Positions 4,567-23,623 of a stretch of 24,712 nt of DNA are shown here, piece by piece; position 1 is the stretch's first letter; each line of letters starts with the position of its first letter. Source of the DNA: a virus; the IMG/VR virus record IMGVR_UViG_3300042924_002546, positions 1 to 24,712 of that record; one strand, given 5' to 3'. The position numbers were made by a program, and so were the translations under genes. Below the pieces are notes generated by a model. It had not been told where the DNA came from. It made no database searches and saw only the letters and a program-made list of their open reading frames with translations.

Positions 4567-4805
4567 GTCACCCCAAAAGCCAGCGGAGCCGCTGTCAAGA
4601 TTGCAATGTCCCCATCGTAGATGGGCTCGTCAATCACAGTGCAAAACCTTCGCAGGTCTTGAAGCACCTGCCGGGGCGTCATCTCGTACCAGCTGGGATT
4701 GAACGGCGGCGGGTTCATGCCCATGTCGTTTAGGGCGTCGATCACCAGTCGGATGCAGTCGTTGCCGCCATATTCGTAGGGCCTGCCGATCAGGTGGTTA
4801 CACAC
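4461..4805 (-). CDS. NlpC/P60-like tail assembly protein (lambda gpK position)
   Basis: I choose GTG 4805, which overlaps the end of the previous gene (GTGTGTAA); the frame open further upstream is a shadow of that gene. The 114-aa protein has GRPYEYGGNDCIRLVIDAL near its N-terminus, the NlpC/P60 pattern in which the Cys of NDC is the nucleophile. GDIAIL follows at mid-length. Where family members usually have a catalytic His before a Gly-rich strand (HVGIY-like), this protein reads FGVTWQTGILY, with no His. It may be a divergent or inactive peptidase with a structural role. In lambda, gpK acts in tail tip assembly, and the order L-like, K-like, J-like matches here. Confidence 0.78.
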   Translation of the reverse strand: MCNHLIGRPYEYGGNDCIRLVIDALNDMGMNPPPFNPSWYEMTPRQVLQDLRRFCTVIDEPIYDGDIAILTAAPLAFGVTWQTGILYINNLTKSVDWKPASVLSIRRCYRLKSR

Positions 4806-5253: not shown

Positions 5254-8200
5254 TCAACCTAATCCGATGCGACGGCGATTGGCTGGGCTATTACTAAGCG
5301 TACGCAGAGCGCGGCGTTCGCCTTGCACAGCACCTTGCTGCGCCGCTTGCGCCAGGCCACGCTGGAACTGATCGGTGGTCACGTAGTCCACGTTGTTGAT
5401 GCGTTCCACGCTGTAGCGGACATCGATGGGCTCCATTGTGGCGACACCATTGCCAAAGCCCGAGCCACCTTGTTCGCCACTGCTTGGAATTACAGATGCT
5501 CCACGATTGCCGGCTGCATAACGCCCCATGGCGGTTCGCATTTTGCTGGCAGGAATGATGTACTCAGGCTCTCCACCTTCACCAACCATTCCCATCGTTG
5601 GACTTGTTACTAGCCCACCCTCGGCGAAAGCCTTAAACCCACCTGTCCAATAGGCGCCTTCAGCAGCAAAGGCACCGGGGAAAGCAGCGCGCAAACCAAG
5701 ATTGACGCCAAAACGCAATAGCTGTTGTCCAATGTCTTTGAGGATCCCAGACGCGATTTCCTTAAGGGCATCGCCAAGATTTTTTGTTCCCGTGATCAAA
5801 CCTTCAATGCCAGCACTCAAAGCATTAACAATTCCATCTTCAATTGTGTCAACAATGCCGCGATACAAAGCCTGGAGTCTTTCGGCTTGGTCAATAGCAT
5901 TTTGCGCTTTCTTTTCTCGCTCCTGTCTTTTGCTTGCCTCTTCTTCTGTTTCTTTTTTTGATTTATCAACTTGACCTTGCTGTAGTTGCAAGATCTCTCT
6001 GATTTTATTGATTTGATCTTGCAGTGCTTTCGCTACTTCACTTTCGGCATTCAATTTGGCTTTGGCAGCTTCAAGTTCGGCAAGTCGCAAGGTCAAAAGT
6101 TCTGATTGCTTTTCCGCTGCAAGCTCAAGTTGCGCAAACTCTTCCGCTAGCTGAGGATTGATGCCATCAGTTAAGAGTTTTTGGTATCTATTTTCAATTG
6201 CTAAACGCTCCGCAGAAGCTTTGGTTAACTCATCAAGTGGCTGGGTTAACTGATCGATTTCTTGTGCCAGTGCCTTTTGTAACTCAAGGCCATTTGTCTG
6301 TAATGCATTCTTTTGCGCTAACTGCAAATTGAGTGTTTCTTCGGCGCTTTTTGACTCTTGTAATCTGCCGTTGAATTCGCGCTGAATGTCGTTTTGCTTG
6401 ACGATTGCGGAAGTAATCTGCTGCTGAAGTGGATTGGCTGTTTCGGCAATCTGCAACCTTCCTTTTTCAATCGCAAGCGTTTCCGCTGCCGCCGCTTTTT
6501 GCTTTGCAATTTCCTCTGTCAAGCGCTTTGCTTCACGTGCCGCTTTTTCTGCCGCTCGCTCGGCGTCTGTTTTTCCTTTCTTCTTTGAACTTTCTTCACC
6601 TCCGGGCAAGCCTGCCTGAGGCGTTGCGGCGGGAGGCAGTAATCCAGTGGATTCAACCCTGGTTGGCAAGGCCAAAATTGCTTCGGCCCTGCGTGCGCGT
6701 TCTTGCAGCAGAGGTCGACGCGCTCCGGCTTGAGCAGTAGTAGGAACGCCAGCCAATGGTGCCAAAGGCCCAAGCAGGGTTTGCTTAGCAATAACCCCGC
6801 CGCTTCTCAATCTTTGCTGCTCTTTTCTGATAGCTTCCAGCGATTTTGTAGCGGTAGCCTTTTGTTCCGCAGTTGCACTTCCGCCAAAAATTGCAGCAGC
6901 GCCTCCCGCAGCTCTTTCGCCACGAAGCCGGCGCACTTCTGCGGCCGCTGTCAATGCTTCTTGTAAGCCAGTGACAATTAAATTGATGCCAACCGTAATG
7001 ACGCCAATAGACGCAAGGTTCGCGAGCACAGCACGAAGACCTGCAAGGACAGGTGTTGTTGTTGCCGCTGCGGCTTGAAGCGTTTTTGTGTTGGCGGCAT
7101 ACAAAGCAAAAGCGCTTGAACTTGCAGTTGCCGCAGTGCCAGTGGCTGCCGTAGTTGTCGCGAAACTTGTAAGTGTCGCTACGACCGCTGCACGAAGAGC
7201 AATGATTGCCTGAATTGCCTTTTGCAATAAAAGTATTTGAACAACAACTTTCGCTACGGCAGTTGCTGCGGTGATAACAGGCTGAGGAATTGCTTTTATG
7301 GCATCAGCAAATCCATTAACAAGTTTGGTTACACTTGAAAGCGCGTCCGCTACAGCGGGCCCAAAGGCCTGACCTAGTGCTTCGCTTAAATTTTTGAAGG
7401 CTGTATCTAGCGCCTTAATTTGATTTTCTAAGCTGCCCTTTAACTTATCAAAATCACTTTGTGTTTTACCTGTAGCATCCCCAAGTGCTTCCAAAATTGT
7501 CTGATAATCTTTGCCAGCTTTTGAATTAGCTGCAAGCACGCCACGAAGGGCTTCCTGTGAGCCAAGCAGCCTTGCAACCGTTTCCTTGTTGGCATCTTGT
7601 TTTTTGGATAACTCCTCAAGTAACCCAGTAAATCCTTTTGCCTCTAATCCTCCAATATTCCACTGAATACCAAGCGCAGCCGCTGCCTCTGTGCTTTCCT
7701 TGGTCGGCTGCAGCAAGGTATTGAATGCCGCGCCAAGACCAGTAAAAGCGATCTCAGCAGTTGCGCCGTTTTTAGTTGCGGCCGCAATAAATGCGTTTAC
7801 CTCGTCAAGGCTTACGCCGGCAATAGCAGCAATTGAAATAACGCGGCCAAGCTGGCTGGTGTAATCCGACCATTCTTGGTTTCCAAGTTCAATGGCCTTT
7901 GAAATACTGTCGGTTACTTTGCTTGCTTGCGTGCCAGCCAACCCGTAGGCGTTAAGTGTTTTTACTAAAACTTCGGTCACAGCTTGGGTATCGGCTAGCC
8001 CACCAGTAGCCGCCTTGGTTGAAGCTCTAAGAATTTCAATGTTGCCAGCTGTATCACTAAAACCAGCCGAAGCCGCTTGGTAAGATGCGGCCGCCAATTC
8101 CGCCTTACTGGCAACACCACCTAGCTCTTTGCTTAGGGATGACAGCGCTGGGCTAATTCGGCCAACGTCAACTCCGACGGTGCCTAGACGCCTCAGATTT

Positions 8201-12708: not shown

Positions 12709-12727
12709 GCCGATTTCCCCGCTCCTT

Positions 12728-12738
12728 TGCTATAAAAT
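12728..12738 (+). promoter_or_regulatory. Candidate extended -10 promoter for the HNH gene
   Basis: The plus strand reads TTGCTATAAAAT, containing TGnTATAAA, an extended -10 pattern. A good -35 is not visible. It lies about 50 nt upstream of the plus-strand HNH gene, which needs its own promoter because its neighbours run the other way. Confidence 0.4.
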
Positions 12739-12743
12739 AATGC

Positions 12744-12768
12744 GACTGGCGAGTTGGCGCTCCCAGTC
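12744..12768 (+). promoter_or_regulatory. Stem-loop in the leader of the HNH gene
   Basis: GACTGG and CCAGTC, extended inward by GAG and CTC with one bulged C, form a nine-pair hairpin between the candidate promoter and the HNH start codon. Leader hairpins that limit translation are known for homing endonuclease genes of T4-like phages; that role here is an inference. Confidence 0.4.
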
Positions 12769-12790
12769 CTGCCCAACCTGAGCTACCAGG

Positions 12791-13285
12791 ATGAGAACTC
12801 CATTATGGCTTGCTGGCCAAAAGCTTGGCAACTGGACAGTTATAGGTACCGAGCCAATCAGAAAAACCTTGCCCAATGGCCACAAGCGGTGCTATTGGCT
12901 TTGTTCCTGTATTTGCGGCAGAACAAGAGAGGTTGAAGGCACAAGTCTTAAGCGAGGCAAAAGCACGTCTTGTGGATGCGTTTCAGGGGTGCCTCGCTAC
13001 GAATTTCATGGATTAGCCAAAAAAATGCCTGAATACAGGGTTTGGCAAGGAATGCGAGAGAGGTGCAACAACCCTAACCATGTTGCCTTTAAATACTATG
13101 GCGCAAAAAATGTTTCCGTTTGCAAGCGGTGGGAAAGTTTTACAGCATTCTTGGAAGACATGGGAAGAAGGCCAGAAGGAATGACAATTGATAGGATTGA
13201 TCCGCTTGGCAATTACGAGCCGCAAAATTGCAGGTGGGCTTCCTGGTTAACCCAGGCAAATAACAAGCGCAAAAATAAACAATAA
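12791..13285 (+). CDS. Free-standing HNH homing endonuclease-like protein, 164 aa
   Basis: The gene runs on the plus strand inside a minus-strand structural operon. The N-terminus has LAGQKLGNWTVIG and a zinc-finger-like pair, CSCICG (38-43) and SCGC (60-63). The C-terminal half (81-160) is the HNH module of phage homing endonucleases: YRVWQGMRERC, YYGAKNVSVCKRW, FLEDMGRRPEGMTIDRID and GNYEPQNCRWA followed by QANNKRKN. These proteins cut DNA and promote spread of their own gene or a nearby intron. The start ATG 12791 lacks a strong ribosome-binding site; AGG lies only two bases upstream. The stop TAA sits in the A-tract of the terminator that serves the opposite strand. Function in homing is inferred from family and context. 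Confidence 0.88.
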   Translation: MRTPLWLAGQKLGNWTVIGTEPIRKTLPNGHKRCYWLCSCICGRTREVEGTSLKRGKSTSCGCVSGVPRYEFHGLAKKMPEYRVWQGMRERCNNPNHVAFKYYGAKNVSVCKRWESFTAFLEDMGRRPEGMTIDRIDPLGNYEPQNCRWASWLTQANNKRKNKQ

Positions 13286-13304
13286 AAAAGGGGGCGATGC
13301 CCCC
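13284..13304 (-). terminator. Intrinsic terminator after the decoration gene
   Basis: On the minus strand GGGGGC, loop ATC and GCCCCC are followed by TTTTTTATT. It lies 25 nt after the decoration-protein stop and would end the capsid and decoration transcript. On the plus strand the hairpin follows the HNH stop but lacks a T-tract, so it would work poorly in that direction. Confidence 0.88.
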
Positions 13305-13329
13305 CGTTGTTGCACAAAGCGATTCAAGC

Positions 13330-13743
13330 TCAGCCGTTCTTGCGGTAGACAGTAAAGGCAGGGGTGCCCACTGCAGTACAAACAAAAACGTAGCTTCCGC
13401 TAGTGGCAGCAGCAATAGTTGCCATGGCAGCAGCGCCACCCAGGGTGATGCCAGAGGCAGCAGCAGTGAAGGTGATCGCGTGAGTAGCGGCGGCCGCGTT
13501 CACAACGGTCACTTCAAAGCTGGTACCGATCTCAAGTTGCCCACCGAAGAAGGTCTTGAGTTCAGCGCCCGTGGGGGTGGTCAGAGCACGACCCGTGGAA
13601 GGGGTCATGGTCACAACGCCCTCAACACACTGTGCAGCGGTGAGGGTGGTTGCTTCGTTACCGGCGGCGGTAACAACCTTCTGAGAAGCCTTGACGTTCA
13701 GGACGGCAAGATCAGAAGTCAACTCAAAAATGGAGGATGGCAT
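13330..13743 (-). CDS. Putative capsid decoration protein, 137 aa
   Basis: This gene starts at ATG 13743, 15 nt after the capsid stop, and is followed by a strong terminator. The protein (MPSSIFELTSDLAVLNVKAS...) is rich in Ala, Thr and Gly, with short beta-type runs: VEGVVTMTP, LEIGTSFEVTVVNAAAATHA, ITFTAAASGITLGG and SGSYVFVCTAVG. Repeated small-residue strands of this kind are common in head decoration and fibre proteins. It contains no catalytic motif. Tight coupling with the capsid gene and shared termination indicate that it is made in large amounts, as for a decoration protein. The family is not recognised, so the role is inferred from position and composition. Confidence 0.72.
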   Translation of the reverse strand: MPSSIFELTSDLAVLNVKASQKVVTAAGNEATTLTAAQCVEGVVTMTPSTGRALTTPTGAELKTFFGGQLEIGTSFEVTVVNAAAATHAITFTAAASGITLGGAAAMATIAAATSGSYVFVCTAVGTPAFTVYRKNG

Positions 13744-13758
13744 GACTCGTTACTCCGA

Positions 13759-15048
13759 TCAGTCGTAATTCGAGACTAAAGAACAACGAACAATTCCGAT
13801 GTTCTTTGTCTCATAGACCTTGCTCCAGTTACCCACGGTGGCCAGTTGAGCGCGAGTGGGGTTCGTGGTGGTCACGTTCCACTTTGCACCAACGGGGTGG
13901 TGGATGTAGTGCATGTCAACCGACATTGCATCACTCTTGGCGAGGATGTCTCTATCTACCTCTGTCCTCATGGACGCTTGCTCACCTGTGGCGATTGCCC
14001 CATTGGTGAAGAAATAAGCGGCATAAGTACCGGCCGAATTTGTAATATCATCGCTGATAATTACACGAAGCCCCATATAAGTTGGAACTCGATAATCGGC
14101 GCTATAGGCAGAAGCGACAGAACCACCGAATGCGTCAGGCATGGCGGTATCAGGGGTAATACCCAGATCCGAAGCCAGAACGTAATCGATTGCCTTGCGC
14201 TCAACCAAGTCGTAGTAGCAAGCGCTGTGGAGGGCCACGGCACTCAGTTTCTCGCCTTGGTCGCCCAGGATGGCGCGGGCCTTAGACACCTGACGGGGGC
14301 CAAGTGCAGTAGCACCGCTGGTATCAAAACGCAGATCAGCGAAAGCAGGAGAATCGCCACCGGTCAGGGAGCCGAAGACGCCTTCAAGGCACTTGTAAAG
14401 ATCGACCTGCTGTTGGTTGGCAAGATACTCACCAACTTTGGCGCCGATAGCGGCCATGGGGTCCGAACCTGCAGCAAGAGCTGCGAGATCACGGGATTCC
14501 CAAGCACGCGCACGGTGCAGGATCACGCCAACTTGCTTATCGGCAACAATCTTGCCGGGGGTCAAGCTGGTGGAATCAGACATCACCTCCAGGTCGCCAG
14601 TGAGATTGGCTTTCCAGAAGGGAACATTCACGAAATCTCCGCCTTCGGTTGCATTGAGTGCAGCCAGAGGTTGAGCAACGCCGCTAGCGAGAAATGCATT
14701 CCGCTGGGTGGTTTGCTCAATCAGATACACGGTTGTTATCCCAAGGGCTCTTTATCCCTTAGTTCTGCGCCTTTGCCATCGGTCGCAGGTCAGACTATAT
14801 CTTCACCCCCTAGTCAAAGACCGGTTGGGTGCGGGGCACTCGTGGGACCGTTACTGAGTTTCCTCTCGGGTCCTAGTCGTTGAACCTTCCAGCTTGTCGG
14901 CTGGCTTGGCTGCTGATTGGCCTGTCCTTTCGGATGGTGGCTTTCCCAGCAATTCACCCCGTTATCCCTAGGAATTACGCCCTAGGGGCCCTTCTGATTA
15001 AGGCGTAAAGATTTCGGGAATGATCACGTCGGAGCGAAGAGTCGCCAC
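13759..15048 (-). CDS. Major capsid protein, split by a group I intron (two exons)
   Basis: Exon 1 is 15048-15001 (16 codons, GTG start, AGGAG at 15061-15057, eight bases away). Exon 2 is 14727-13759 (322 codons plus TGA or equivalent stop). Joined, they give a 338-aa protein whose N-terminus reads VATLRSDVIIPEIFTP then YLIEQTTQRNAFLASG, the conserved start of this capsid family. Unspliced RNA stops at TAA right after exon 1. Exon 2 alone lacks the start and N-terminal arm, although the intron's last codon happens to be GTG. The rest (WKANLTGDLEVMSDSTSL, ARAWESRDLAALAAG, PTYMGLRVIISDDI, YIHHPVGAKW) fits an HK97-fold coat protein of the gp13-like group. Location after the scaffold gene agrees. 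Confidence 0.93.
14728..15000 (-). ncRNA. Group I intron (ribozyme), 273 nt, no ORF
   Basis: The minus strand carries the four conserved core elements in order. P is AATTGCTGGGAA (14954-14943) and Q is AATCAGCAGCC around 14919-14909; TGCTG of P pairs with CAGCA of Q (P4). R is GTTCAACGACTAG, and S is AAGATATAGTC; GACTA 14878-14874 pairs with TAGTC 14797-14793 (P7). The exon end TTACGCCT (15008-15001) pairs with the internal guide GGGCGTAA (14982-14975), giving an 8-bp P1 with the required U.G pair at the splice site. CTGCG/CGCAG and AAGGG/CCCTT form P9-type hairpins near the 3' end. The last base is G (14728). P10 appears short (two pairs). The intron lies in phase 0 and encodes no protein. 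Confidence 0.93.
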
Positions 15049-15131
15049 GGTGAAAACTCCTAAATTGATTTACGGTGCGGGCGTAACCCAATGCGCCTTA
15101 GGCGTAACCTTTAAGCGCTAACGGTTACATA
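15049..15131 (-). promoter_or_regulatory. Capsid gene leader with repeats
   Basis: The 83 nt between scaffold and capsid genes contain GGTTACGCC twice on the minus strand (15109-15101 and 15088-15080). GTAACC 15128-15123 can pair with GGTTAC 15109-15104. CGCCTAAGGCG (around 15105-15095) is a self-complementary 11-mer. The TTACGCC copies also match the intron's 5' splice site. AGGAG at 15061-15057 is the ribosome-binding site. No terminator T-tract is present. Confidence 0.5.
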
Positions 15132-23410: not shown

Positions 23411-23623
23411 ATGCGACGACTGGCCACTCGCACTGAGCGAGACCTGCTAGCGATCCTTCAGGATTTTCGGTGCGCCATCTGCGGATGCGATTTGCCGGAT
23501 CAATTTGAATGTGACCATTTGGTGCCGTTTTCGAAGGGAGGTCCAACGACCTTGAACAACCTTCAGGCACTATGTCCGAACTGTCATTTAGAAAAAACCC
23601 GCGCCCAGGTCAGGCAGAAGTAA
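23411..23623 (+). CDS. Small HNH endonuclease, 70 aa
   Basis: A complete compact HNH protein. C21 and C24 (CAIC) with C55 and C58 (CPNC) form the zinc-binding pair of the Cys4 type. D35-H36 in CDHLVPFSKGG holds the catalytic His, and N49-N50 precede the second Cys pair. The start ATG 23411 gives MRRLATRTERDLLAILQDFR. The last 52 nt overlap the beginning of the helicase gene in another frame. Small HNH proteins in phages act in packaging, recombination or genome degradation; the adjacent helicase suggests they work together in DNA metabolism. Confidence 0.9.
   Translation: MRRLATRTERDLLAILQDFRCAICGCDLPDQFECDHLVPFSKGGPTTLNNLQALCPNCHLEKTRAQVRQK

Follow-up and report, generated by a model that had tools for sequence, protein, structure and literature searches.

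A group I intron in the major capsid gene of an uncultivated cyanophage-related virus and its relatives at two positions of the same gene

Background

Group I introns of phages have usually been described in genes of nucleotide and DNA metabolism, a preference that has been termed mysterious (PMC12350094). In the mycobacteriophage LittleE, splicing of an intron in the major capsid gene was established by RT-PCR and N-terminal protein sequencing, and the same report cites a case in the lactococcal phage Tuc2009 (PMC3706429). The DNA analysed in this work, hereafter the window, is a virus record of 24.7 kb (24,712 nucleotides). As in LittleE, a group I-type intron splits a phage major capsid gene, with a U before the intron and a G at its end. 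The virus and the capsid gene are different. The LittleE intron spans ~819 bp, hosts an endonuclease ORF and has been called "most likely" group I, whereas the intron of the window measures 273 nt, has no ORF and meets the Rfam group I model.

Results

The capsid gene and its intron

The window carries, on the minus strand, a siphovirus-type row of structural genes, made of terminase, portal, head morphogenesis, scaffold, capsid and tail genes. The major capsid gene is split. Exon 1 (15001-15048, minus strand) has 16 codons, starts with GTG and ends with TTT ACG CCT; a Shine-Dalgarno-like AGGAG is read in the sequence 8 nt upstream of the start codon (15057-15061, minus strand). Exon 2 (13759-14727, minus strand) has 322 codons plus a stop, and matches phrog_247 and PF20036. 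The 273 nt in between (14728-15000, minus strand) are assigned to a group I intron by the match to RF00028, the absence of the segment from the relative L003, and covariation. RF00028 is the sole Rfam RNA in the window, and the full model is covered (15010-14765, minus strand) at 66.1 bits (E 5.8e-15), the gathering score being 50 bits. The intron opens with TAA, a stop in frame with exon 1, and its last base is a G. An endonuclease ORF was looked for within the 273 nt and none was found, nor was any long ORF. Excision of 15000-14728 joins 16 and 322 codons in frame into a 338-aa protein, whose junction reads VATLRSDVIIPEIFTP|YLIEQTTQRN. The product matches the phrog_247 major head protein from residue 3 to 331 (E 9.3e-78) and PF20036 (E 1.8e-14); it falls by a whole-length match in the phrog_247/SPP1 gp13-like major capsid family, and is an HK97-type capsid protein.

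An earlier note, based on inspection of the letters, had proposed that a group I intron interrupts the major capsid gene, a view now backed by Rfam, an empty-site relative, covariation and an intact spliced protein family. The covariance search that it suggested gave a score above the cut-off. Its further statements, that the exons join in frame to FTP-YLIEQTTQRN, that the unspliced frame halts at the first intron codon, and that an ordinary ORF call begins the capsid at GTG 14730, all hold. As judged from sequence, the intron very probably excises itself from the capsid message. We infer that splicing takes place in the cell, and the capsid gene would then depend on ribozyme activity. In every close copy of the intron, whatever the insertion site, the first codon past the 5' splice site is a stop in frame (TAA or TGA), which possibly keeps ribosomes off the ribozyme.

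Fold and splice-site helices

The fold was assessed on an alignment of nine introns, with 73 pairs in 16 helices and 500 shuffles. Over the 73 pairs, 99.5% of cells form. Nine pairs are changed on both sides, a number reached by 2 of the 500 shuffles, and none of the 500 reaches the covariation score. Support is located in P2, P5a, P6a, P7.1, P9.2 and P9.0. The P2 hairpin (CCCUAGG/CCUAGGG, 14966-14987, minus strand, as are all intron elements) shows two compensatory pairs and 100% pairing, and the P9.2 hairpin (14741-14762, strands 14762-14756/14747-14741) has compensatory changes in L062 and L234. The catalytic core (14832-14961), delimited by the Rfam match and the nine-intron alignment, includes P3 (14961-14955/14838-14832), P4 (14951-14947/14915-14911), P5-P6, the P7 5' strand (14878-14874) and P7.1 (14873-14869/14849-14845); the P7 3' strand, UAGUC, maps by the same evidence at 14793-14797. 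All core helices (P3-P8, P4-P6, P7) form in the nine introns. P1, P3, P4 and P7 are invariant, hence consistent with the fold and devoid of independent covariation support. The P7.1/P7.2 region, bounded by the 5' strand of P7 and the 3' strand of P3, has two stems, and one of them shows compensatory change in two pairs; by this anatomy the intron is IA2-like. The P, Q, R and S-type elements, P4 (TGCTG/CAGCA), P7 (GACTA/TAGTC) and the terminal G listed in the earlier note were all found.

The P1 proposed in that note has to be replaced. An 8-bp helix, UUACGCCU paired with GGGCGUAA, forms in 84.7% of cells and shows zero compensatory change; GGGCGUAA (14982-14975) was discarded as the guide, as it sits in the covarying P2 hairpin. 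P1 (14988-15004) is rather a 5-bp helix, in which GCCU (15004-15001) and the first intron base, U1 (15000), pair with AGGGC (14992-14988), the U at the end of exon 1 forming the U.G pair at the 5' splice site. This helix is paired in 100% of cells and in 9/9 introns, at both insertion sites, and is the one found in Rfam's own alignment. At the other end, the intron closes with GUG (14728-14730, 14728 being the terminal G), and GU (14730-14729) pairs with AC (14790-14789) to form P9.0. In L074, AC/GU is changed into AG/CU, a compensatory C-G to G-C replacement. Because P9.0 covaries in L074, the 3' splice site is tied to the terminal G.

P10 is formed by UCUGAUU in exon 2 (14719-14725) and AAUCAGA in the intron (14999-14993), for 7 bp. 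The bases between splice site and guide complement exon 2 of their own site in most lineages. P10 has 7 bp in the window and in L238/L237, and 6 bp in L074, L062/L234 and L235; it is reduced to 3 bp in L226/L231, where it fails. Placement of the 3' splice site is assigned to P9.0, with its compensatory change in L074, and to P10, which forms in every lineage except L226/L231. Taken one by one, the P10 matches have modest shuffle values (0.002 to 0.04), and it is their recurrence at different exons that makes the case for P10.

Empty sites

For comparison, 80 relatives were fetched. In L003 the site is empty, and the sequence is 99.0% identical to the joined exons over 400 nt. About 74 full-length capsid homologues lack the intron, and almost every one reads FTP-Y across the junction, in accord with the contiguity across FTP-YLIEQ expected in the earlier note; the 16 residues of exon 1 are conserved among them. 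The closest cultured capsid proteins are those of Synechococcus and Prochlorococcus phages, and the capsids of KBS-S-2A, S-H1, MED4-184, P-HS2 and MED4-117 are 59-70% identical to that of the window. Unlike the window, KBS-S-2A and S-H1 have no intron at either of the sites described below, FTP-Y being contiguous, and the capsids of MED4-184, P-HS2 and MED4-117 align whole-length in one piece, in contrast to the split gene. Bacterial genomes were scanned for copies of the intron and none was found; the scan revealed no prophage relative of the capsid.

Two insertion sites

A search for close copies by a P3-P5 pattern identified ten contigs in addition to the window. The introns of the eleven contigs measure 271-278 nt, and none has an endonuclease ORF inside. 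Six (window, L074, L233, L236, L237, L238) carry the intron after capsid codon 16 (site 1), and five (L062, L234, L226, L231, L235) after codon 52 (site 2), 108 nt downstream in the same gene; L235 has a divergent capsid gene. Both sites end in GCCU, and the guide sequence is unchanged between them. Empty sites are common among relatives, and two flank changes accompany the site-2 intron in two backbones. L062 and L234 have separate capsid backbones, ~9% apart, and, compared with their nearest intronless relatives, share the same two silent changes beside site 2, GTTCCC into GTGCCT. This is what donor flanks imported along with the intron would look like. The changed bases are those required by P1, and selection for P1 is an alternative cause. 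At site 1, no clustered differences near the site were detected between the window and L003. Positions -19 and -28 were considered as co-converted, and dismissed because L008 already carries those bases.

The L234 intron is a mosaic. Its ends are identical to those of L062, at site 2, while the core follows the site-1 intron of the window (pattern 222WWWWWWWWW22222222, runs test p = 1e-4). Exchange between introns located at different sites is the simplest reading, though mis-assembly in a sample hosting both alleles could in principle give the same picture. The mirrored comparison of the window intron with those of L074 and L234 fell short of significance (p = 0.13).

Host genes of the core

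A core pattern derived from the capsid intron, CAATCAGCAGCCAAG...GAAGGTTCAACGACTA, matched at least 120 stretches in IMG/VR, and host genes were assigned by scanning and clustering the ORFs ending just before, or following, the core. Among the IMG/VR matches listed, at least 32 of the 114 loci, or 30 once redundancy is removed, have the core beside capsid exons. The earlier note had regarded introns as uncommon in phage capsid genes, which fails for this lineage in uncultivated viruses. Where exon pairs were checked, the two members in most cases cover successive parts of a single capsid profile (for example 15-125 and 123-321 in L136, 27-125 and 124-325 in L188, 14-72 and 73-327 in L116, 3-60 and 58-308 in L182), and interruption is confirmed only in the loci so checked. 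The hosts of AATCCGCAGCC, a control core with a single base changed, include genes for terminase, portal and the DNA and RNA polymerases, and capsid matches are only ~5 out of 86. Among the matches listed, capsid adjacency is ~six times higher (odds ratio) than for the control core (Fisher p about 4e-5), with the reservation that the first pattern stems from a capsid intron, that virus contig sets favour structural genes, and that the counting differed somewhat between the two cores. We infer a preference for capsid genes as a biological rule. The broader notion of a group IA lineage specialised on phage capsid genes, which would have invaded several unrelated capsid families, and would shift between neighbouring sites in a gene, refit P10 to each and swap cores from site to site, all with no endonuclease of its own, is tentative and somewhat short of even odds.

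Clustering of related elements was noticed in some contigs. In L187, whose capsid belongs to a different family (phrog_1357), apparently two related introns reside in or beside one capsid gene (4581-4628 and 6132-6408). Two to five group I cores per contig, within a few kilobases, occur in L113, L268, L272, L285, L307 and L315.

Discussion

The data are best accounted for, with a probability of roughly 0.93, by a cyanophage-related virus in which the capsid gene is split by a self-splicing group I intron of 273 nt, spread via recombination. The virus is a relative of cyanobacterial siphoviruses. The short P1, formed by exonic GCCU with GGGC, would set the 5' splice site, which the guanosine bound in P7 would attack; the end of exon 1 would next attack after the terminal G, positioned by P9.0 and P10. 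The joined message would direct synthesis of the normal capsid protein, the unspliced message that of a 16-residue peptide only. The intron belongs to a lineage that occurs in many phage capsid genes, and at two positions of this one. Recombination between co-infecting phages, perhaps with the aid of nucleases acting in trans, would best account for its spread, along with a rare shift to site 2 and subsequent tuning of P10.

How the intron moved can be envisaged in different ways. The homing endonuclease of its own by which mobile group I introns are recognized is lacking in the window intron (273 nt, no long ORF). Collaborative homing would keep the intron, itself spliced, in capsid genes, in that a free-standing HNH enzyme would cut intronless alleles and repair would copy the intron in. 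Such homing has precedents in T4 mobE, T7-like phages and a cyanophage (PMC2988022, PMC10448857), and a free-standing HNH gene (12791-13285, plus strand; phrog_374, E 1.6e-54) lies 0.5 kb beyond the capsid gene. Genes of the same family are found in 3/6 intron-bearing and 5/24 intronless records, a weak difference confounded by record length. Yet this gene resides within an insertion of ~616 nt (about 12716-13331), antisense between structural genes just past the capsid, which is absent both from the intronless L003 and from L074, a record with this intron at site 1 as in the window; the cassette is moreover 99% identical in L043, which lacks the intron. The HNH genes of the L074 and L062 contigs are different genes, 38-41% identical and located elsewhere. 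The HNH gene at 12791-13285 and the intron are not linked, the absence from L074 rules out this gene as a required partner, and homing in trans is on the whole unlikely. No GIY-YIG (PF01541) or HNH_3 (PF13392) domains were found in the six intron-bearing records. The window hosts, past the end of the head-gene row on the terminase side, a small HNH protein of the PF01844 type (23411-23623, plus strand); matches to PF01844 occur also in the L074 and L234 records, and are not linked to the intron.

A switch of site mediated by RNA is hardly more attractive, and doubtful. The excised intron would have reverse-spliced into another GCCU of the capsid mRNA, to be copied into DNA by reverse transcription and enter the genome by recombination. 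The unchanged guide and the GCCU at both sites fit such a route, as does the lack of an endonuclease ORF, reverse splicing requiring in general 4-6 nt (PMC3984707). No reverse transcriptase is known in this setting, however; the intronless allele of the L062 and L234 backbones reads GUUCCC, which indicates that these two probably gained the intron through DNA exchange, together with donor flanks, and site 2 could be older than site 1. That the intron is decayed, and a shortened capsid protein is made from GTG 14730, is very improbable. In most copies the last intron codon is a GTG in frame with exon 2, which the gene caller picks, but the codon is accounted for by P9.0, since L074 has CTG plus the matching change across the helix. 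The conservation of the first 16 residues in intronless homologues, the start codon and ribosome site of exon 1, and the covarying helices of the intron equally oppose decay. Still more remote is an assembly artefact: all intron contigs come from metagenome assemblies, but ten other contigs, each with its own metagenome identifier, have the intron at one or other of the two sites, mostly with a site-matched P10.

Cores which differ by one base and are unlike in capsid adjacency provide a natural comparison to learn what sets host-gene preference. Alleles at two sites, with a shared guide, swapped cores and site-fitted P10, make relocation of an intron within a gene directly testable. Automatic annotation shortens capsid genes of this kind. 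In the literature searched, covered in part, no description of this lineage or of its capsid preference was found.

Similarities to known introns can be recognized in part. The tail-gene intron of BAKA and Optimus is short (265 bp) and has no endonuclease gene, as in the window, and is similar in sequence to an intron of another structural gene (PMC3706429). The two Cluster J introns reside in different genes, whereas the lineage of the window occupies two sites of the same gene. The introns of S-PM2 psbA and of the Pf-WMP3 DNA polymerase gene are, like that of the window, group I introns of cyanophages, but are associated with free-standing or intron-encoded endonucleases (PMC6083498, PMC3428280), and interrupt photosynthesis or replication genes, rather than a capsid gene. 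The phage capsid-gene intron is already known as a kind, and the window adds a further example.
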